A stretch of DNA of 64,000 bases from positions 310,001-374,000 of the forward strand of contig NZ_QRGD01000004.1 of the NCBI RefSeq assembly GCF_003449015.1, in the 5' to 3' direction. The stretch's first letter is position 1. Every line of letters begins with the position of its first letter. This stretch comes from Aureibaculum luteum (GTDB taxonomy: Bacteria > Bacteroidota > Bacteroidia > Flavobacteriales > Flavobacteriaceae). The position numbers were made by a program, and so were the translations under genes. Positions 35,479-53,185 of this stretch are shown here, one piece after another. The notes beneath the pieces were generated by a model, which worked only from the letters and a program-made list of their open reading frames with translations, searched no databases and was not told the origin of the DNA.

Positions 35479-36912
35479 TTATGGATATTTAAAACCTAAA
35501 TCATTATGCCTTACTTTTTTTAATTTCTTCTTTAATTTCTTTTGAAAAGAGGATACTATCTTTTTGTAGTTAAGGTCATTTGCCAAGTTTGTAAATTGCT
35601 GAGGGTCTTTGACCATATCAAATAATTCAATACCTGCAGAAGCATCTTCGTTGTATTGAATATAAGCCCATTTTTCTGTTCTTAACAAAAAAGACTTACC
35701 ACCTTGTGATACACTAAAAGCTTCTTGTCTAACTTGAAACTCAGCATTATCAATTGTTTTAACCAAACTCTTACCCTGTAAGTGTATTGAAGATTTTATA
35801 CCCGCCAATTCAGAAATTGTAGGATATAAATCCAACAACTCTACAAATGAATTACAAACTTTCGGCTCTTTACCTGGAACTTTAATAATTAAAGGAACCT
35901 GGACAGATTCTTCATGTAAACTCACTTTCATCCAAAAATTATGTTCTCCTAAATGAAAACCATGATCTGAAGTAAAAATAACGATAGTGTTATCCTCTAA
36001 TCCCTCATTTTTTAAAGTTTCTAGCACTTTACCCACTTGAGTATCCATATATGATACCGAGGCATAATATGCAGCCACCGCTTTTTTCTCTTGCTCTAAA
36101 GACATTTGTCCATTAACACTTGTAACATAATTGATCCCTCTCTTAGGAATATCATCCCAATCGCCTTTTACTTTTTGAGGCATTATGATTTCTTCGTGTG
36201 GATAGGGTTCAAAATATGCTTTTGGAGCTACAAAAGGAACATGAGGACGTACAAAACCTACGGCTATAAAGAAGGGTTCGTTTTTATGTTTCTTTATTAA
36301 TTGTATGGCTTTTTGAGCTGTTTTCCCATCAGAATGCACTAAGTCATCACCTTCCGCCTTAACAATGGTCATCACATTACCTCCCTTTCTTTCTATTTTA
36401 CCATCAGGATTCCCTTGAACTAGTTCTGCTTCTCCGATGGCTTTCCATTCAGGACCTTGACTATTAAAACGCTCCGTCCAAGACGCTTCATCATCTTGTC
36501 CATTAGATCCTGTTTCAATATCAATAGGAACTCCCATATGAAAAATCTTACTTACTCTTGCCGTATAGTATCCATTATCCTTGAACAATTGTGTCATTGT
36601 TTTTCTGTCGGGACCAATATTTTCTCGTCCACTAACATAGCCGAAAGTCTTAGTAGCATTAGGATAATAACCAGACATAAACGAAGCTCTAGAGGGCCCA
36701 CATACAGGATATTGAGAATATGCTTTTGTATATCGCACACCTTCTGAAGCTAATTTATCTATATTTGGCGTTTTACAGGCGTTATTTTCATAAGATGAAA
36801 CCGCAGTTGCTGTTAAATCATCAGATATAATAAATAAGATGTTTGGTTTTTTCTGTTGAGAAATGGAATTAAAACTCCAAAAAAAAATGAATATAAAAAT
36901 AAATTGCTTCAT
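35479..36912 (-). CDS. Type I sulfatase, iduronate-2-sulfatase-like
   Basis: 477 residues. Signal peptide 1-18. Hydrolyses sulfate esters using formylglycine made from the Cys of CGPSRASFMSGYY (CxPSR motif). Metal ligands are visible in LFIISDDLT near the N-terminus and FTSDHGFHLGEHNFW later. The overall order matches iduronate-2-sulfatase-type enzymes (family S1_7-like) acting on sulfated polysaccharides in the periplasm. An anaerobic or oxygen-type formylglycine maturase is not in the window. It is followed by the RDD gene in the same direction and separated from hisH by 64 bases. Confidence 0.93.
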   Translation of the reverse strand: MKQFIFIFIFFWSFNSISQQKKPNILFIISDDLTATAVSSYENNACKTPNIDKLASEGVRYTKAYSQYPVCGPSRASFMSGYYPNATKTFGYVSGRENIGPDRKTMTQLFKDNGYYTARVSKIFHMGVPIDIETGSNGQDDEASWTERFNSQGPEWKAIGEAELVQGNPDGKIERKGGNVMTIVKAEGDDLVHSDGKTAQKAIQLIKKHKNEPFFIAVGFVRPHVPFVAPKAYFEPYPHEEIIMPQKVKGDWDDIPKRGINYVTSVNGQMSLEQEKKAVAAYYASVSYMDTQVGKVLETLKNEGLEDNTIVIFTSDHGFHLGEHNFWMKVSLHEESVQVPLIIKVPGKEPKVCNSFVELLDLYPTISELAGIKSSIHLQGKSLVKTIDNAEFQVRQEAFSVSQGGKSFLLRTEKWAYIQYNEDASAGIELFDMVKDPQQFTNLANDLNYKKIVSSFQKKLKKKLKKVRHNDLGFKYP

Positions 36913-36976
36913 AGTTAGTTATTTATAATTACAAGTTAAAATATATATTTAAAGTCCTATTCTACTAATTTATGAC

Positions 36977-37561
36977 TTATTTCAACTCCAAAAAATTCTC
37001 CAATAACAACTCCCCAGCATTGCTACTTTTTTCCGGATGAAACTGAACACCATAAAAATTACCTTTTTTTAAAGCTGAAGAATAGTCCATTTCATAATTA
37101 GTGACTGCAATAGTTTCAGCACAAATGGGTGCATAAAAACTATGTACCAAGTACATATATTCCTGCTCTCTTATCCCCTTAAACAAAGTAGATTTTAAAT
37201 CCGTAAGTGTATTCCATCCAATTTGGGGTACTTTTACTTTGTTACTAAATTTGACAACGTCTACATCAAAAATACCTAACCCCTTTGTATTGCCTTCTTC
37301 ACTATAGTTACACATCAATTGCATTCCTAAGCAAATACCCAAAACGGGTTGTTTTAATTGTGGAATAAGAGTATCCAACCCAGTGGATCTTAACTTTTCC
37401 ATAGCACTACTCGCCTCTCCTACACCAGGAAAAATAACTTTATCGGCGGATTGAATCGTCACTGCATCATGACTGAGAATGGCTTCATACCCCAATCTTT
37501 GAATAGCAAATTTGATGCTTTGAATGTTTCCGGCTCCGTAGTCGATGATGACTATCTTCAT
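36977..37561 (-). CDS. hisH: Imidazole glycerol phosphate synthase, glutamine amidotransferase subunit
   Basis: 194 residues. Supplies ammonia from glutamine to HisF for imidazole glycerol phosphate. Seen: MKIVIIDYGAGNIQSIK, PGVGEASSAM, the nucleophile Cys in LGICLGMQLM and the His/Glu pair in GVQFHPEKS. It is the last gene of the his operon in this window: hisA, hisF and hisIE, which usually follow in Bacteroidota, are replaced by a sulfatase gene. A 116-base spacer with a hairpin separates it from hisB. Confidence 0.96.
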   Translation of the reverse strand: MKIVIIDYGAGNIQSIKFAIQRLGYEAILSHDAVTIQSADKVIFPGVGEASSAMEKLRSTGLDTLIPQLKQPVLGICLGMQLMCNYSEEGNTKGLGIFDVDVVKFSNKVKVPQIGWNTLTDLKSTLFKGIREQEYMYLVHSFYAPICAETIAVTNYEMDYSSALKKGNFYGVQFHPEKSSNAGELLLENFLELK

Positions 37562-37677: not shown

Positions 37678-38811
37678 TTACAACATTCCTTTTGTGCTTG
37701 GTAGTATCATTTTATCGGCATCACGTTTTACAGAAGCTTTAATAGCTTTAGCAAAAGCTTTAAAAATTGCCTCAATTTTATGATGTTCATTTTCGCCTTC
37801 AACTTTTACATTTAAGTTCGCTTTGGCACCATCTGTAAAAGATTTAAAGAAATGATAAAACATCTCTGTAGGCATTTTTCCAATCATTTCGCGTTTAAAA
37901 TCAGCATCCCAAACCAACCAATTTCTGCCTCCAAAATCAATACTAACTTGAGCTAAACAATCGTCCATAGGTAATGAAAAACCGTAACGTTCTATGCCTA
38001 GTTTATTACCTAATGCCTCACTAAAAACTTCTCCTAGAGCTATGGCTGTATCTTCAATAGTATGATGTTCGTCAACTTCCAAATCGCCTTTAACACTAAT
38101 TTCTAAGTCCATTTGTCCGTGACGTGAAATTTGGTCTAACATATGGTCAAAAAAAGCAATTCCAGTATCAATTTTACTTTTTCCGGTACCATCAAGATTT
38201 AATTTGATGCTAATATCCGTTTCATTCGTTTTTCTTTGAATCTCTGCAGTCCTATTATCTAATTTCAAAAACTCATAAATGCGTTGCCAATTATTGGTTT
38301 CCAATGCTATGTACTCATCTAATTCATCACGCTTAACGGTAATCTCATCTGTTCCTAAATGAGTATTATCATTTATAAAAAAACCTTTTGACCCTAGATT
38401 TTTAGCCAACTCAATATCAGTTAAACGATCTCCAATAACAAATGAATTTTTTAAATCATAGTCCTCTGAAAAATACTTTGTCAATAAGCCTGTATTTGGC
38501 TTTCTTGTCGGTGCGTTATCTTTAGCATACGTTTTATCAATTACTATTTCGTTAAATACAACACCTTCATTTTTAAAAACATCGACAATAAAATTATGAA
38601 CGGGCCAAAATGTATCTTCTGGAAAACTCTCTGTTCCCAATCCATCTTGGTTGGTTATCATAACCAATTCATAGTCTAATTCATTTGCTATTTTAGGTAA
38701 ATAGGCCAATGCTTTTGGATAAAATGTTAATTTTTCAAAACTATCAATTTGCTCATCAGTAGTCTCTCTAATAATTGTTCCGTCTCTATCAATGAAAAGG
38801 ACTTTCTTCAT
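37678..38811 (-). CDS. hisB: Bifunctional histidinol-phosphatase / imidazoleglycerol-phosphate dehydratase
   Basis: 377 residues. The N-terminal HAD phosphatase domain (about 1-170) shows DRDGTI near residue 8 and [12 protein letters not shown]; the C-terminal IGPD domain (about 185-377) shows [27 protein letters not shown] and later [14 protein letters not shown], the two Mn-binding His clusters. It performs steps 6 and 8 of histidine synthesis. The gap to hisC is 2 bases. The fusion, as in enterobacteria, is common in Bacteroidota. Confidence 0.97.
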
Positions 38812-38813
38812 AA

Positions 38814-39857
38814 TTATATTTCTTTTAATGCTTTTATCAATTTTTTATTTTCTTGTTCTGTACCAATAGTAAATCGTAAACAATTTTCACATAATGGTTG
38901 ACTTGATCTATTTCTAACTACAATTCCCTTTTCTAATAATTGTGCATACCTTTTATCCGCATTGTCTACTTTCACTAACACAAAATTACTATCTGTGGGA
39001 TAAATAGTATCTACAAAACCCACCTCAAGTAATTCTTTAAGTAACTTACTCTTTCCAGTTGTAATTATGCTGATTTCATTTTTAACGTTTTCAGTATCAT
39101 CCAACCTTTTAATTGCTCGCTGTTGCGTTAATTCATTAACATTATATGGTGGTTTAATTTTGTTTACTACTGCAATAATTTCTGAAGAAGCATAACAAAT
39201 TCCCAGTCGTATTCCTGCCATACCATACGCCTTAGATAGTGTTTGTGTAACTATTAAATTTGGATAATTCTGAAGTTTATTCAACCAACTTTCTTCTGAT
39301 GAAAAATCGACATATGCTTCATCAATGACTACCAAACCATTAAATGATTTTAGTAAATTTTCAATAATTACAGCATCAAAAGTATTACCCGAAGGGTTAT
39401 TTGGTGAACATATAAACAACAACTTTGTGTGCTTGTCAACTGCCTCCAAAATTGCATCAACATCCGGCTGAAAGTCATTTACTAGCAACACTTCCTTATT
39501 CTCAACATTATTAATATTAGCCAAAACTCCGTACATGCCATATGTTGGTGGTAATGTAATTACATTATCTTCTTTGGGCTCACAAAAAGCTCGATAAATG
39601 AGATCTAAAACTTCATCACTCCCATTACCTAACAAAATATTCTCTAGTTGAACACCTTTTTGTTCTGCTAATATTTTTTTCACAGTCCTTTGTTGCGGAT
39701 CCGGATAACGATTTACACCATTTTCAAAAGGATTTTCATTCGCATCTAAAAAGACCATATCCTGATCAAAATTCTTAAATTCATCACGTGCTGATGAATA
39801 CGGTTTTAACGCCTTAACATTTGGACGAATTAAACTATTTAGATTAAAATTATTCAT
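38814..39857 (-). CDS. hisC: Histidinol-phosphate aminotransferase
   Basis: 347 residues, class I/II PLP aminotransferase. Seen: [30 protein letters not shown], the NPSG turn in [19 protein letters not shown] and the PLP Lys in [14 protein letters not shown]. Converts imidazole acetol phosphate and glutamate to histidinol phosphate. Overlaps hisD by 8 bases. Confidence 0.97.
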
Positions 39858-41139
39858 CTTTTAAACTATTTAACCGCAATGTAACTGCATTTTTATGAGC
39901 TTGTAAACCTTCGGCACTAGCCATTATTTCTATGGCATTGCCTATATTCTTAATTCCTATTTTCGTCACTTTTTGAAAAGTCATACTCTTTAAAAAGCTA
40001 TCTAAATTTACACCACTATATTGCTTAGCATAACCATTAGTAGGTAAGGTATGATTAGTACCCGAAGCATAATCTCCAGCACTCTCAGGTGTATAGTTCC
40101 CTATAAAAACAGAACCTGCATTTTGTATACCATCTATATAAAAATCTTCATTTTTAGTACAAATAATAAAATGTTCCGGTCCATATTGATTGATTAAATT
40201 TAAGGCAATAGCATCATTATCAACATAAATTAATTTGGAATTATCTATCGCTTTCTGAGCCATAGTTTTTCTAGGCAGATCATTTATTTGTAATTCTATT
40301 TCTGTTTCCACTTTATCTATCAAAGATTTAGAGGTAGAAACTAGAATTACTTGACTATCGGAACCATGTTCAGCCTGACTCAATAAATCTGAAGCCACAA
40401 AACTTGCATTTGCTGTATCATCAGCTACTATTAACAATTCAGATGGTCCTGCTGGCATATCAATAGCTACACCATATTTTGTTGCTAATTGCTTAGCAAC
40501 GGTTACGAATTGATTACCAGGGCCAAAAATTTTAAACACTTGCGGTATCGTTTCGGTACCAAAAGTCATTCCGGCAATAGCCTGAATCCCACCAACTTTA
40601 TAAACCTTAGTAACCCCACAAAGTTCAGCGGCATATAAAATTGCTGGATTTATATTTCCTTCCTTATCAGGAGGAGAACACAAAACAATTTCTGAGCAAC
40701 CAGCCAATTTAGCAGGAATAGCCAACATTAATACCGTTGAAAACAACGGAGCAGTACCTCCTGGAATGTAAATTCCTACTTTTTGAATAGGGCGTTTTTC
40801 TTGCCAACAATTGACACCAACAGCAGTCTCAACTTCAATTTTTGATGTTTTTTGTGCTTTATGGAATTTTTCTATGTTCTTCTTAGCCAAAAGAATGGCT
40901 TGTTTTAAACTCTCGTCAATGGGTTTCCCTTTTTCAGAAATTTCAGTTGCAGAAACTTGTATATTCTTTAACTCTATACCATCAAAAAGATTGGTGTATT
41001 TTTCAATGGCAACATCACCTTTCTGTTTTACCTCATTGAAAATTTCTAACACCGTTGCTTCAATATCTTCCACAGTCTGTGTAGGTCTCGATAATATCGT
41101 TGACCAACTGTCTTTTTCCGGGTTGTATATTTTATTCAT
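39850..41139 (-). CDS. hisD: Histidinol dehydrogenase
   Basis: 429 residues, full length. Oxidises histidinol to histidine with two NAD and one Zn. Seen: the NAD loop YIPGGTAPLFSTVLM, MPAGPSELLIVADD, QAEHGSDSQVILV (Zn and catalytic residues), GPEHFIICT and GDYASGTNHTLPT. It overlaps the GNAT gene by 8 bases upstream and hisC by 8 bases downstream, so translation is coupled along the operon. Confidence 0.97.
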   Translation of the reverse strand: MNKIYNPEKDSWSTILSRPTQTVEDIEATVLEIFNEVKQKGDVAIEKYTNLFDGIELKNIQVSATEISEKGKPIDESLKQAILLAKKNIEKFHKAQKTSKIEVETAVGVNCWQEKRPIQKVGIYIPGGTAPLFSTVLMLAIPAKLAGCSEIVLCSPPDKEGNINPAILYAAELCGVTKVYKVGGIQAIAGMTFGTETIPQVFKIFGPGNQFVTVAKQLATKYGVAIDMPAGPSELLIVADDTANASFVASDLLSQAEHGSDSQVILVSTSKSLIDKVETEIELQINDLPRKTMAQKAIDNSKLIYVDNDAIALNLINQYGPEHFIICTKNEDFYIDGIQNAGSVFIGNYTPESAGDYASGTNHTLPTNGYAKQYSGVNLDSFLKSMTFQKVTKIGIKNIGNAIEIMASAEGLQAHKNAVTLRLNSLKDE

Positions 41140-41569
41140 TTGTATATGTCTTTCTAAAATGGAAACCTAGCTTTTGACAACCATAGTTTTCCCAAAATTT
41201 ATTTCCTCTATTGTTACCAATATAACTATTTAATTCTGTGGCAACACAACCAATTGATTTGCCATAATCATTAACCCAATCTAAAAGTAATGGGCCAATT
41301 TCTTTTCCTCTATAATCTGGATGAATCATAACATTATCAGCTTCTAAATGTTTACCAATATAATACTTGAACAACACCCATACACCACAAATTCCAATCA
41401 ATCTATCTTCTTCATAGACTCCAGCACATTTATAATGATGCTTTAGCATTTCTGGGAGCCTTTCTTTTAAAACCTCAACACTTATTCTATCATCTAGCCG
41501 TCTTAAATAAGGAATAATTGTAAAAATATCCTCATCAGCTATAAATTTGATTTGATAAGGTGAATCCAT
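41132..41569 (-). CDS. GNAT-family N-acetyltransferase within the his operon
   Basis: 145 residues. The acetyl-CoA-binding motif A is visible in DNVMIHPDYRGKEIGPLLLDWV, with a closing NRGNKFWENYGCQKLGFHF typical of GNAT proteins. The gene abuts hisG (no gap) and overlaps hisD by 8 bases, so it is translated as part of the his operon and subject to the same attenuator. Substrate unknown; an amino group of a pathway intermediate or histidine itself is conceivable but not supported by sequence. Confidence 0.88.
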   Translation of the reverse strand: MDSPYQIKFIADEDIFTIIPYLRRLDDRISVEVLKERLPEMLKHHYKCAGVYEEDRLIGICGVWVLFKYYIGKHLEADNVMIHPDYRGKEIGPLLLDWVNDYGKSIGCVATELNSYIGNNRGNKFWENYGCQKLGFHFRKTYTNE

Positions 41570-42427
41570 TTATAAAACCATTTTTTCAATTGGGCACACT
41601 AAAATCCCTTCTGCTCCATTCAACTTTAATTCATCAATTACATCCCAAAATCTATCTTTATTAATTACGGTATGTATTGAACTCCAACCTGCTTCTGCCA
41701 AAGGCAAAACTGTTGGGCTTTTCATTCCTGGCAGTATTTTTATAATGTCGGCTACCTTATCGTTTGGAGCATTTAACAACACATATTTACTATTTCTCGC
41801 TTTAAGAACCGATTGAATTCTAAATTGAAGTTTATTTAATATACTTTGCTTTTCATCAGATAATGAAGGTGAAACCGTTAAAACAGCCTCACTTTTTAAT
41901 AAGACTTCAACTTCTTTTAAGTTATTTTTAAATAAGGTACTTCCACTTGAAACAATATCGACAATGGCATCAGCCAACCCAATATTTGGAGCAATCTCTA
42001 CAGAACCATTAATAACATGTAGCTCTGATTTTACGCCTTTTTTATCTAAAAACTGATTGACCGTATTTGGATATGAGGTTGCAATTCTCTTACCTTCTAA
42101 ATCCTTAATTGAACCGTATTCAACTGATTTAGGCACAGCAATAGAAACTTTACATTTCGAAAAACCTAATTTTTCAACTATGGGTAAGTCGTTTCCTTTT
42201 TCAATTAACGTGTTTTCTCCTATTATGGCAGCATCTACAACACCATCTCTAAGATACTGAGGTATATCTCCATTTCTTAGATACAAAACTTCAATAGGAA
42301 AATTTCTTGCAAAAGCTTTTAACTGATCTTTTCCATTATCTATGGAAATACCACAATTTTTAAGCAATTCTAATGACTCTTCATTTAATCTGCCTGATTT
42401 TTGAATGGCAATTTTTAATTTATTCAT
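41570..42427 (-). CDS. hisG: ATP phosphoribosyltransferase, long form
   Basis: 285 residues, the long form with a C-terminal ACT-like regulatory domain (about 210-285) for histidine feedback, so no HisZ is needed. First committed step of histidine synthesis: condenses ATP with PRPP. Seen: LKIAIQKSGRLNEESLELL, DAAIIGENTLIEKG, the PRPP loop DAIVDIVSSGSTLFKNN and the tail GAEGILVCPIEKMVL. First structural gene after the attenuator, directly followed by the GNAT gene. Confidence 0.97.
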   Translation of the reverse strand: MNKLKIAIQKSGRLNEESLELLKNCGISIDNGKDQLKAFARNFPIEVLYLRNGDIPQYLRDGVVDAAIIGENTLIEKGNDLPIVEKLGFSKCKVSIAVPKSVEYGSIKDLEGKRIATSYPNTVNQFLDKKGVKSELHVINGSVEIAPNIGLADAIVDIVSSGSTLFKNNLKEVEVLLKSEAVLTVSPSLSDEKQSILNKLQFRIQSVLKARNSKYVLLNAPNDKVADIIKILPGMKSPTVLPLAEAGWSSIHTVINKDRFWDVIDELKLNGAEGILVCPIEKMVL

Positions 42428-42455: not shown

Positions 42456-42493
42456 ACAAATAAAAAACCCGCTTGAACTATTCAAACGGGTTT
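42456..42493 (-). terminator. Intrinsic terminator of the his attenuator
   Basis: On the minus strand AAACCCGTTTGAA pairs with TTCAAGCGGGTTT (13 bp including one G:U) around a TAG loop, followed by TTTTTTATTTG. It lies between the His-rich leader peptide and hisG, 34 bases before the hisG ATG. Confidence 0.85.
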
Positions 42494-42536
42494 ATATGAT
42501 TTTAGATTTAAAACACAACAACTCACCTCGCCTGAA
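42481..42536 (-). promoter_or_regulatory. Antiterminator of the his attenuator
   Basis: The segment TTCAGGCGAGGT (42525-42536), which is the end of the leader peptide gene, is complementary to ACCCGTTTGAA (42481-42491), the 5' arm of the terminator: 11 pairs with one bulged A and two G:U. Only one of the two structures can form. A ribosome stalled on the upstream His codons leaves the segment free (antitermination), while a ribosome that reaches the stop covers it (termination). Confidence 0.75.
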
Positions 42537-42576
42537 AGCCAGTATGGAAATGATGATGGATGTGATTTAAAGTCAT
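42523..42576 (-). CDS. hisL: Histidine operon leader peptide
   Basis: 17-codon gene reading MTLNHIHHHFHTGFQAR, ATG at 42576 and TGA at 42523-42525. Five of the residues at positions 5-11 are His (HIHHHFH), in a mix of one CAC and four CAT codons. It starts about 15-20 bases after the predicted transcription start, and is followed by an antiterminator arm and terminator, exactly the layout of ribosome-mediated attenuation known from enterobacterial his operons. It is too short for normal gene callers. Confidence 0.88.
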   Translation of the reverse strand: MTLNHIHHHFHTGFQAR

Positions 42577-42595
42577 TTTTTATATTATTGAAGCA

Positions 42596-42628
42596 CAAAT
42601 TTAATGGATAAATTTTTTATAATGCAAA
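42596..42628 (-). promoter_or_regulatory. Promoter of the his operon
   Basis: Minus-strand TTTG (42625-42628), 21 bases, then TAAATTTG (42596-42603), an exact TAnnTTTG box. The implied start is near 42590, about 15 bases before the leader peptide ATG. Confidence 0.7.
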
Positions 42629-42686: not shown

Positions 42687-43595
42687 TTATCCTTCCTTTA
42701 ACTTATTCATTTCTACCTGATGTTGTTTTTTAGCATAAGTATAACCGTAGTGCCACCATTTGGCCATTAACTTTTTATTGAACACTAATGAATTTGTAGT
42801 TAAAACGGTTGGCGTATAATATAAATTAAGCTTCACATTATCATGTGCAGCCTGTAATTTACCTATAGTTACATTATGTCTTTCTACTTGATCCATCATA
42901 AATTGAACCACATGAGTAATTAATGAAAAGGGATTTTTTGAAGGAATTCTATTGAGTTGGCTTACTTCGGTTTCTAAAATAATTACATCAATTTCAGTTG
43001 CTCCTCTCAAAATAGCTTCTCTGATAGGAACTAAAGAACCAAAGCCTCCATCGGCATATTCGCTTCCATTTTTACGCAATAAACTCATAAATGGCACATA
43101 GTTACAAGATGCCCAAATCCAATCACAAAAATCGAGGTAGCTACAATCTTGAATAGCTTTATATTCAACTACATTTTTGGTTAAGTTTGATACAGTTACT
43201 ACCACATCCTTTTCTGATGCTTTTATGCGATCAAAATAAGATTCAGTTACATACTTTTTTATTAATTTTCTTAAGTTTTTACTTTCACCAAAAGTCCGCC
43301 GTCCATTAATAAAATTCCACACTGTATTTAAATGATTAATGGAAACCACTTTTTCTCCATCAACAGTTTTTACGACAAAAGGATTATTGCTGAAAATTTT
43401 TCGTTGATTAATAGTCGTATAAATCGCTTTAAGCTCATATAGTTTTCCTAATGCTAAGTGCGATACCATTAAGCTACCGGTTGATGTACCTAAAAATAAA
43501 TCGTATTTATTGTTTTTTTCATCTATAAGATATTCAGCAACGCCACCTGCAAATGCCCCTTTACTCCCTCCTCCTGAAATTACTAATGCTCTCAT
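42687..43595 (-). CDS. Patatin-like phospholipase
   Basis: 302 residues. Patatin fold with the oxyanion loop SGGGSKGAFAGG (7-18), nucleophile Ser 38 in GTSTGSLMV and the catalytic Asp in YADGGFGSLVP, a complete Ser-Asp dyad. No signal peptide or C-terminal barrel, so it is a cytoplasmic acyl hydrolase rather than the PlpD type with an outer-membrane domain. The C-terminal region has LVFNKKLMAKWWHYGYTYA. Monocistronic, divergent from the BNR lipoprotein gene. Confidence 0.92.
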   Translation of the reverse strand: MRALVISGGGSKGAFAGGVAEYLIDEKNNKYDLFLGTSTGSLMVSHLALGKLYELKAIYTTINQRKIFSNNPFVVKTVDGEKVVSINHLNTVWNFINGRRTFGESKNLRKLIKKYVTESYFDRIKASEKDVVVTVSNLTKNVVEYKAIQDCSYLDFCDWIWASCNYVPFMSLLRKNGSEYADGGFGSLVPIREAILRGATEIDVIILETEVSQLNRIPSKNPFSLITHVVQFMMDQVERHNVTIGKLQAAHDNVKLNLYYTPTVLTTNSLVFNKKLMAKWWHYGYTYAKKQHQVEMNKLKEG

Positions 43596-50536: not shown

Positions 50537-50566
50537 TTGTTATTAAAACAATATCTAGTACATTTG
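50537..50566 (+). promoter_or_regulatory. Promoter of the thrA-thrB operon
   Basis: TTG (50537-50539), 19 bases, then TACATTTG (50559-50566): a full match to the Bacteroidota consensus. The implied start is at about 50571, leaving a 5' leader of about 170 bases. Confidence 0.72.
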
Positions 50567-50570
50567 AAGT

Positions 50571-50663
50571 GTGCAATTAAGAACATTACATACCAACACA
50601 ACTACACGCATAAAAAGTACGATTTTTAATGCATTTACTTCAGTTTTCACCCTTTGGGGTTAA
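50571..50663 (+). CDS. Candidate threonine leader peptide (GTG start, uncertain)
   Basis: An open frame of 30 codons from GTG 50571 to TAA 50661-50663. Eight residues are Thr, including the cluster TNTTTR at 8-13, and two are Ile (IKSTI). Position and composition recall thrL leaders of thr operons. Against it: GTG falls at the predicted transcription start, no other start exists in frame, and no terminator with a T-run follows; only an imperfect hairpin (50658-50707) is present. An overlapping ATG frame (50629-50730) is not Thr-rich. Confidence 0.35.
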   Translation: MQLRTLHTNTTTRIKSTIFNAFTSVFTLWG

Positions 50664-50740
50664 TCATTCTTACACATCCGTATTATTTGGTCTATTAAAG
50701 AATAACCATAAAATAATTATTTATCAGTAATCCACTATTT

Positions 50741-53185
50741 ATGAAAGTTTTAAAATTTGGAGGAACATCAGTAGGTTCATCAAAAAATATTAATAAAATA
50801 ATTGAAATTGTAAAAGCTAACCAAGAAGAAAAACAAATTATTGTTGTTTCTGCATTTGCAAAAGTCACCAATTTATTGCTAGAAGCTGCTCAGCTTGCAT
50901 CTATCAAAAAAACAGCATACACTTCTGTTATTGAAGATATTAAAACAATACACAATCAGATAATTTTAGATTTATTTACAGAGAAGGATAAAAATGAAGT
51001 TTTAAAATTTGTAAATCAAAAACTTACGGATCTTAAATCTATATTAGATAGTATTTCATTAATAAGCGAACTTTCAGCAAAAAGCGAAGCTAATATTGTT
51101 AGTCATGGTGAACTATTATCCTCATTTGTAATTGCAAAAGTATTACAAGTGAATCATATTGATGCGGAACGAAAAGATACTAGAGAACTGATTTTAACCA
51201 ATACAAATTATACAAATGCTTCAGTAAATTTTGAAGTTTCGAATCGTCAAATTCAAGATTATTTTAAATCAAATAAAGCGAAAGTTACTGTTTTACCTGG
51301 CTTTATTTCTTCTGCAGAAAATGGAGACACCACAGTACTAGGTCGTGGTGGTTCTGATTACACTGCCGCTATTGTAGCTTCAGCACTTGATGTAGATGTA
51401 TTAGAAATATGGACTGATGTAAGTGGAATGTTTACAGCAAATCCTAATGTTGTTGCTCAGGCCATGCCTATAGAGCAAATTTCTTATGAAGAAGCAATGG
51501 AATTATCGCACTTTGGAGCCAAAGTTATATACCCTCCAACGATTCACCCGGTTTTAAAAAAGGAAATACCTATTCTTATAAAAAACACATTAAAACCAGA
51601 AGACGCAGGTACACTTATTACAAAAACCAGTAAAGACAAAAAAAATCCTGTAAAAGGAATTAGTCATATTGATGATGTAACATTAATTACTTTAGAAGGA
51701 TCTGGAATGGTAGGTATTCCGGGATTTTCAAAACGATTATTTGAAACATTAGCTACTGAAAAAATTAACGTGAAGTTAATTACGCAAGCATCATCTGAGC
51801 ATTCTATTTGTATAGGTATTGATGATAGTAATGCTAATTTGGCCAAAATTGCTATTGATAGCACTTTTGAATTCGAAATTTTAAAAAATAAAATCAAACC
51901 CTTACAGATAGAAAAAAACTTATCTATTATAGCTATTGTTGGCGATCATATGAAAAGTCACCAAGGTATTAGCGGAAGAATGTTTGGTACTTTAGGTAAG
52001 AATAATGTGAACATAAGAGCCATTGCACAAGGTGCTTCTGAAAAGAACATTTCGGCAGTAATTGCGGCTAAAGATGTCAAAAAAGCATTAAATAGTCTAC
52101 ATGAAAGTTTCTTTAAAAACAATAACAAGCAACTTAATTTATTTATTACAGGTGTTGGTAATGTGGGTGCTAAACTGATTGAGCAAATAGAACAACAGCA
52201 TGAATTTTTGTTAAATAATTTAAACATTAATATCAGAATTGTTGGTTTGTCAAATTCAAGACAAATGATTTTTGATGAAGAAGGCATAAACCTATCTTCA
52301 TGGAAAGAACAGATAAATAAGGGCTTACCAGCTTCGTTAGATAGTTTTCTTGAACAAGTAAAAGCATTAAACCTTAGAAATAGCGTTTTTGTAGATATTA
52401 CAGCGAATGCAAAAGTGGCTGATATGTATGCTAAGTATTTAAAAAACAGTACAGCTGTTGTTGCCTGCAATAAAATTGCGAGCTCTGCTACTTATAAAAA
52501 GTACAAAGAGCTTAAAGAATTATCACGATCATATGACGTGCCTTATTTATTTGAAACGAATGTTGGTGCAGGTTTACCTATTATAGATACCTTAAATAAT
52601 TTAATTACTTCAGGAGATCAAGTACATAAAATTCAAGCGGTTTTATCTGGAAGTTTAAATTTCATCTTTAACAACTTTAACACTAAAACTGAATTTTATG
52701 ATGTGGTTAAACAAGCACAATTAGAAGGCTATACAGAACCAGACCCTAGAATTGATTTAAGTGGTGTTGATGTTGCTCGAAAAATACTGATTTTAGCAAG
52801 AGAAAGTGGTATAAAAATCAACTTAGAAGATATTGAAAATGATTCATTCCTTACGGAGAATAATCACAAAGCTGATAGTGTTGATGACTTTTACAATTCA
52901 TTAAAAACCGATGCTGATCACTTTAAAGCGTTATTAAAATCAGCGAACAGTAACAAATGTCAGTTAAAGTATGTAGCTGAGCTTATTAACGGTAAGGCTA
53001 AAGTAGGTTTAAAGGAAATACCAGTAGGACATCCTTTTTACAATTTAGAAGGCAAGGATAATATCGTAATGTTTTATACAAAAAGATATCCAGAACAACC
53101 CATGATTATTAAAGGTGCTGGTGCTGGTGCAGACGTTACAGCTTCAGGACTTTTTGCAGATATTATTAAAATTGCAAATAATTAA
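50741..53185 (+). CDS. thrA: Bifunctional aspartokinase / homoserine dehydrogenase I
   Basis: 814 residues. N-terminal aspartokinase (about 1-290; KFGGTSVGSSKNI, GRGGSDYTAA, ELSHFGAKV), ACT regulatory pair (about 310-450; LEGSGMVGIPGF, GISGRMFGTL), and homoserine dehydrogenase (about 465-814; GVGNVGAKLIEQI Rossmann loop, ETNVGAGLPIIDTL, GYTEPDPRIDLSGVDVARK). Carries the first and third steps of the aspartate family pathway; threonine feedback through the ACT domains is typical of the family. Starts 170 bases after the promoter; 2 bases before thrB. Confidence 0.97.
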   Translation: MKVLKFGGTSVGSSKNINKIIEIVKANQEEKQIIVVSAFAKVTNLLLEAAQLASIKKTAYTSVIEDIKTIHNQIILDLFTEKDKNEVLKFVNQKLTDLKSILDSISLISELSAKSEANIVSHGELLSSFVIAKVLQVNHIDAERKDTRELILTNTNYTNASVNFEVSNRQIQDYFKSNKAKVTVLPGFISSAENGDTTVLGRGGSDYTAAIVASALDVDVLEIWTDVSGMFTANPNVVAQAMPIEQISYEEAMELSHFGAKVIYPPTIHPVLKKEIPILIKNTLKPEDAGTLITKTSKDKKNPVKGISHIDDVTLITLEGSGMVGIPGFSKRLFETLATEKINVKLITQASSEHSICIGIDDSNANLAKIAIDSTFEFEILKNKIKPLQIEKNLSIIAIVGDHMKSHQGISGRMFGTLGKNNVNIRAIAQGASEKNISAVIAAKDVKKALNSLHESFFKNNNKQLNLFITGVGNVGAKLIEQIEQQHEFLLNNLNINIRIVGLSNSRQMIFDEEGINLSSWKEQINKGLPASLDSFLEQVKALNLRNSVFVDITANAKVADMYAKYLKNSTAVVACNKIASSATYKKYKELKELSRSYDVPYLFETNVGAGLPIIDTLNNLITSGDQVHKIQAVLSGSLNFIFNNFNTKTEFYDVVKQAQLEGYTEPDPRIDLSGVDVARKILILARESGIKINLEDIENDSFLTENNHKADSVDDFYNSLKTDADHFKALLKSANSNKCQLKYVAELINGKAKVGLKEIPVGHPFYNLEGKDNIVMFYTKRYPEQPMIIKGAGAGADVTASGLFADIIKIANN

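Follow-up and report, generated by a model that had tools for sequence, protein, structure and literature searches.

The window, i.e. the entire 64-kb stretch of Aureibaculum luteum DNA that was analyzed, carries a his operon on the minus strand, and the region upstream of hisG holds a short His-rich ORF followed by an intrinsic terminator. In the direction of transcription, the features of this locus and the evidence on which each was assigned are as follows:

TTTG at 42625-42628 and TAAATTTG at 42596-42603, minus strand: Bacteroidota-type promoter-like site (TTTG-N21-TAAATTTG); sequence
42523-42576, minus strand: leader ORF of 17 codons, MTLNHIHHHFHTGFQAR followed by the stop (ATG at 42574-42576, TGA at 42523-42525); sequence
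42544-42564, minus strand: putative regulatory His codons 5, 7, 8, 9 and 11 (CAC, CAT, CAT, CAT and CAT); sequence
42505-42574, minus strand: 1:2 hairpin, in which the leader start and the His codons pair with sequence surrounding and following the stop codon; minimum free energy (MFE) and covariation
42525-42536, minus strand: segment 2, the upstream arm of the antiterminator, spanning leader codon 14 through base 1 of the stop; pairing, covariation and codon bias
42481-42491, minus strand: segment 3, common to antiterminator and terminator; pairing and covariation
42462-42493, minus strand: intrinsic terminator with a 13-bp stem and a 3-nt loop (42465-42493) and six T; sequence, fold and covariation
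41570-42427, minus strand: hisG (start at 42427), ATP phosphoribosyltransferase with a HisG_C domain; Pfam HisG and HisG_C
41132-41569, minus strand: GNAT acetyltransferase gene between hisG and hisD; Pfam Acetyltransf_1
39850-41139, minus strand: hisD; Pfam
38814-39857, minus strand: hisC-like aminotransferase gene; Aminotran_1_2 and position, the name being our reading
37678-38811, minus strand: hisB; Pfam
36977-37561, minus strand: hisH-like class-I glutamine amidotransferase gene; GATase and position, the name being our reading

A sulfatase gene follows the hisH-like gene (region 35479-37561, minus strand). The GNAT gene, which the original prediction had described as embedded in the operon, indeed occupies this position in the window, but elsewhere it was found between hisG and hisD at only 16 of the 79 loci with both genes, hisD following hisG by less than 250 nt at the other 63.

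The predicted leader peptide contains five His among its 17 codons. When the 400 nt preceding hisG were dinucleotide-shuffled 3000 times, no shuffle contained five His within eight codons (the highest number was four, observed twice), and among all ORFs of 8-45 codons on both strands of the 64 kb the leader was the sole one with at least five His in seven codons. The 17-codon gene with His at positions 5, 7, 8, 9 and 11 agrees with the original prediction, and the shuffles together with the ORF scan speak against chance. The terminator between the leader and hisG is formed by the arms AAACCCGTTTGAA and TTCAAGCGGGTTT, of which the 3' arm runs into the six T, while segments 2 and 3 can form 11 pairs with two G-U and one bulged A. 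This complementarity of 11 pairs and the 13-bp terminator with its T-run, both part of the original prediction, are real in the sequence. The prediction of a two-structure version that dispenses with the extra pause hairpin, on the other hand, proved wrong, since the MFE structure of the window's leader is the long 1:2 hairpin, the inner and outer stems of which covary in relatives. This hairpin may act as a pause site. The 126-nt fold of the window's leader region had a z of -4.63, with none of 200 shuffles equally stable. Taken singly, the z values in the window were modest (-1.67 for the leader hairpin and -2.29 for the antiterminator duplex, 50 shuffles each); over the 110 related loci described below, z was less than -2 for the leader alone at 86 and for the antiterminator duplex at 100 (50 shuffles each).

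These 110 loci comprise the best 80 named hisG among at least 553 confirmed relatives and the best 30 from a sample of family genomes, 123 of 149 of which had hisG. Neither set was selected by leader, and the window's own locus (L001) is included. Some genomes are present twice, and 106 of the 110 leader sequences differ, corresponding to 92 distinct peptides. The closest named relative among the matches listed was Aureibaculum flavum with a 98% identical hisG. Aligning the regions upstream of hisG, which had been proposed as a check of the original prediction, supported its core: a His-rich leader was present at all 110 loci, 103 of them recognized by a strict HHH pattern plus terminator motif and seven variants by eye (e.g. 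HRHH, YHH), its length was 17 or 18 codons in 104, and both stems exhibited compensatory changes. The longest His run was three in 60 loci, four in 47 and two in three, and of the 440 His codons in the leaders, 358 are located 9-12 codons ahead of the stop. A strong hairpin with T-run lies about 23-43 nt past the leader stop in the window and the aligned loci. The leader was likewise present at five of the six loci whose hisG scored lowest in the family sample (L191-L194 and L178). In the four loci with 14-codon leaders (L023, L041, L079 and L109), the stop lies within segment 2 at the place of a Gln codon found in most others, and the terminator is placed as usual. GCG accounted for 100 of 141 Ala codons in the leaders versus 234 of 2023 in the corresponding hisG genes, a codon bias that reflects constraint on segment 2 at the nucleotide (RNA) level.

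Covariation was assessed in alignment A2, which contains 76 of the 110 loci (69 left after removal of near-identical ones plus the seven variants). The inner 1:2 stem and the terminator together were paired in 91.3% of cells, with both-side changes at 11 of 26 pairs; because the alignment contains many closely related sequences, its covarying cells do not represent independent events, a dependence for which the shuffles make no correction. Only three of 500 shuffles reached 11 such pairs and none of the 500 matched the percentage paired or the covariation score, while versions slid along the alignment were paired in 34-51%. Considered alone, the terminator helix was paired in 97.4% of cells with both-side changes at five of 12 pairs. 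The antiterminator was paired in 92.7% of cells in the 76 sequences, and both sides had changed at four of 11 pairs (nine cells); five of 500 shuffles reached four pairs, and the number of pair types was not unusual (48 of 500). The outer 1:2 stem exists in two registers, both of which covary, with 93.3% pairing in 35 rows and 94.2% in 26, percentages that are inflated because the 61 of 76 rows in these two groups were assigned by which register pairs (15 rows fell into neither). Owing to these two registers, there was no single outer-stem consensus over all rows, and RNAalifold returned no pairs for the leader part of alignment A1. In one pair of the inner stem, the partners are the first position of leader codon 11 or 12 and the middle position of the stop codon; this pair was C-G (His or Gln with TGA) in 33 sequences, U-A (Tyr with TAA or TAG) in 33, unpaired in nine and U-G in one. 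The U-A form was observed in 22 of 26 rows of one outer-stem group and in five of 35 of the other, in which 25 of 35 had C-G.

The effect of a ribosome on these structures was modeled by folding each leader through segment 3 while 29 nt were kept unpaired, on the assumption of a footprint that reaches 15 nt upstream and 11 nt downstream of the A-site codon. In this model, a ribosome with its A site at the run's first, second or last His gave the antiterminator at all 110 loci and one at the last His of the leader at 74, while a ribosome on the stop codon gave it at only five, with 28 loci keeping at least six 1:2 pairs outside the footprint. With no ribosome, the antiterminator was predicted at 41 loci and the 1:2 hairpin at 69, and the modeled default in this state is therefore not uniform across loci. 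For the window itself, the model predicted the 1:2 hairpin with no ribosome, the antiterminator for a stall in the His run and neither for the stop position. In the full transcript, the terminator was the MFE structure at 105-110 of the 110 loci in every ribosome state. Antitermination would hence have to be kinetic, as it is in known attenuators. What these loci demonstrate is the leader together with its competing folds, the conservation and covariation of both and, under the assumed footprint, the geometry just described.

From these data we infer transcription from the promoter-like box, translation of the leader, stalling and a regulatory output that would proceed as follows. A ribosome would load on the leader, which has no Shine-Dalgarno sequence, and read the His codons. 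With charged histidinyl-tRNA plentiful, it would reach the stop codon and cover segment 2, allowing the terminator (3:4) to form and stopping transcription before hisG. When histidinyl-tRNA is short, the ribosome would stall in the His run and block the 5' side of the 1:2 hairpin, so that segments 2 and 3 could pair as the antiterminator and RNA polymerase would enter the operon. If no ribosome is present, the 1:2 hairpin would compete with the antiterminator and favor termination. Conservation, covariation and modeled footprint geometry strongly support the core of such a ribosome-mediated his attenuator, and we consider it highly probable that a classic transcription attenuator of the hisL kind controls hisG-GNAT-hisD-hisC-hisB(-hisH).

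Other explanations for the arrangement upstream of hisG were considered. A patatin-like gene (42687-43595) immediately precedes this region on the minus strand of the window, and the terminator could merely end its transcript, with the short ORF being incidental. The His codons would not persist in an incidental ORF, however, and the synteny contradicts this reading: among the 80 best named loci, a patatin homologue was found just upstream of hisG in only three, including A. flavum, and at 14 the first ORF of at least 100 aa upstream was on the opposite strand, yet all 80 keep leader and terminator despite their differing upstream genes, making this explanation extremely improbable. It is similarly hard to credit that the short ORF is translated constitutively and sets the fold regardless of histidine, without any amino acid sensing. 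Even though in the model the antiterminator can form with the A site almost anywhere between about codon 3 and the codon 8 positions ahead of the stop, so that geometry alone is not histidine-specific, all 110 loci have a His run at the stall positions (longest run of three or four in 107, two in three), and they have it before his genes. Positions -12 to -9, where most of the leader His codons lie, were permissive in 109-110 of the 110 loci, and as a stall almost anywhere in the permissive range would suffice, it is the codons that would confer histidine sensing.

The leader might also act on hisG translation or via Rho instead of through an intrinsic terminator. Some distant families have a His-rich ORF before hisG with no T-run in the stretch searched (L195 and L204, with L230 borderline), and for this reason other outputs may exist in the phylum. 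For the window and the aligned loci this alternative is very unlikely, although slightly less so than the previous two, as the T-run hairpin after the leader stop covaries and competes with the antiterminator there. A ribosome-mediated attenuator acting on the intrinsic terminator is accordingly the reading we retain for this locus.

The promoter is the weakest part of the observation. The TTTG/TAAATTTG site, which we take to conform to the Bacteroidota-type promoter consensus, includes the TAnnTTTG box that the original prediction had named and that is present in the window, but a strict box within 90 nt of the leader start was found at only 36 of the 110 loci (window included) versus 7.7% of base-shuffled controls, and was missing in the other 74. 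At 18 loci, TTG occurred 15-28 nt further up from the strict box. None of six tetramers resembling a Shine-Dalgarno motif was present upstream of the leader in 109 of the 110 loci, as is expected for Bacteroidota (PMC6847099, available in part). According to the available parts of PMC6847099 and PMC9976891, Bacteroidota lack Shine-Dalgarno sequences and their ribosomes fail to recognize them.

An RNA model (R1) was built from A2, with the window leader in the training set, and its distribution was examined within and beyond the family. In its own genome, the window leader was the one strong match (E 1.4e-14); the next match (0.006) overlapped it on the opposite strand. The 36 matches inspected because they lay outside the family or had a weak score included 22 His leaders before hisG, other families among them, one leader before an ilvD-like gene and 13 other sequences, the gene names being our reading of the proteins. 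The leader found by the his model before an ilvD-like gene belongs to an order-level relative (L182) and reads MNNIVNIILINTLLLVVPQAGERGM plus stop, followed by a terminator. As R1 also matches plain terminators, its tallies (104 of 296 and 54 of 395 genomes) are not leader counts, and stricter filters lose true leaders; a hisG-anchored sample was used instead. This sample contains 40 genomes from 22 other families, hand-picked from the best listed of the 252 of 296 genomes with hisG, and families with weaker hisG scores are therefore missing. A short ORF with at least four His in eight codons, reached by at most four of 200 shuffles, preceded hisG in 25 of the 40 genomes and 13 of the 22 families of this hand-picked sample. 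The other 15 genomes failed the shuffle test, with L197, L206 and L230 borderline by eye; families f29, f32, f33, f34, f40, f43, f44 and f62 had none in this sample, and f57 was borderline (11 His codons, six of 200 shuffles). In several rows (e.g. L217, L220 and L222) the hisG start was called crudely, and features may be hidden or shifted; in L220, a hairpin with T-run is visible by eye, although the automated table gives none. Five loci from distant families (L195, L204, L230, L233 and L234) have a His-rich ORF with 5 to 11 His codons before hisG. No hairpin with T-run was obvious at these five, a T-run without hairpin being flagged in L233 and L234, and judging from their sequences the output there may differ.

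Candidate leaders followed by a hairpin with T-run were also identified by eye before other amino acid genes of the same genome. These precede a trpE-like gene (L267; MNTILNHTWWWNSRNTNS plus stop, with three Trp in a row), a pheA-like gene (L269; a Phe/Tyr-rich ORF with AYFYFFYFY) and an ilvD-like gene (L265; the Ile/Leu/Val-rich MKTRNLINNTILNVVIIQWQ plus stop). By eye, two further chorismate-binding genes of this genome had no such leader. In the window, the region before the aspartokinase-homoserine dehydrogenase gene (50741-53185) contains, at 50558-50740 on the plus strand, a TACATTTG box and a Thr-rich ORF (MQLRTLHTNTTTRIKSTIFNAFTSVFTLWG plus stop) that overlaps a CCCTTTGGGG hairpin, with no clear terminator by eye. 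In a raw count, made without shuffles, 24 of the 30 family loci (the window's among them) showed a short ORF with at least three Thr in 14 residues; at least two of the 24 look unrelated and some rows may be mis-framed. Endings like TTLWG, ITPLG and TTPLG recur with the same hairpin.

Attenuation by his leader peptides may be old and general in Bacteroidota, predating most family splits and independent of Shine-Dalgarno sequences, and may together with trp, phe, ilv and thr leaders form a main mode of amino acid control; we give this broader proposal an even chance of being correct. If true, the leading ribosome must pace RNA polymerase closely in Bacteroidota; the literature searched, available in part, yielded no direct study of ribosome-RNA polymerase coupling in this phylum. 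The findings describe the anatomy of a control element hitherto just indicated by a transcriptome study, supply a model with which it can be searched for, and suggest that textbook attenuation extends widely through a major phylum without Shine-Dalgarno sequences. If the attenuator works, a single reporter would suffice to test transcription-translation coupling in Bacteroidota, and the leader would constitute a natural histidine-responsive switch for these organisms.

Transcription attenuation by leader peptides is a textbook mechanism. A survey of attenuation in bacteria by Lopatovskaya et al. (2010) may already list Bacteroidetes his operons. In the literature searched, which included neither this survey nor the supplements of PMC9723704, we found no his leader peptide, alternative structures or spread in Bacteroidota. 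In the part of PMC8305728 available, which deals with his genes of Bacteroidota and relatives, attenuation comes up a single time, in connection with Salmonella and E. coli. For hisZ and a hisS paralogue of bacilli, short ORFs containing a series of His codons have been proposed as leader peptides (PMC2965389, available in part); these likewise resemble the leader described here, but belong to another phylum and other genes. In the same partial source, the atypical ermC is the sole leader peptide system beyond Proteobacteria and Actinobacteria of which the authors were aware. Bacteroid-trp RNA (RF01692), a candidate structured RNA of Bacteroidetes (PMC2864571, available in part), is linked by its name to trp, a different operon, and had no match at gathering level in the window. 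A T-box riboswitch or other Rfam family was rejected, as only two tRNAs match in the window at the gathering threshold.

One of the closest counterparts among known systems is enterobacterial hisL (RF00514, His_leader), which likewise has a His-rich leader peptide, a 1:2 hairpin and a terminator with T-run before hisG, whereas the leader described here has no Shine-Dalgarno-like motif. RF00514 aligns to 42460-42559 over the full model with an E of 0.0023 in a 281-nt search, its 30.6 bits being under the gathering score of 49. At the gathering threshold, Rfam gave no leader match in the window or in 20 related loci, in agreement with the available part of PMC9723704 (2021), where a structured 5' element without Rfam hits is reported upstream of hisG in F. 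psychrophilum and across Flavobacteriaceae genera. The original prediction, which had described the mechanism as established for enterobacteria, was right in this but incomplete, given that a hisG element had already been reported in this family. That element has the same position as the window leader, and the same partial source gives clues for leader-peptide attenuation at amino acid operons of F. psychrophilum and names a 5' element at pheA. With textbook attenuation and this earlier hisG element and these clues at hand, the leader would represent an instance of a known mechanism. The part of PMC9723704 available contains no hisG peptide, structure or model, and it is the anatomy, the covariation and the wider distribution that are added here.
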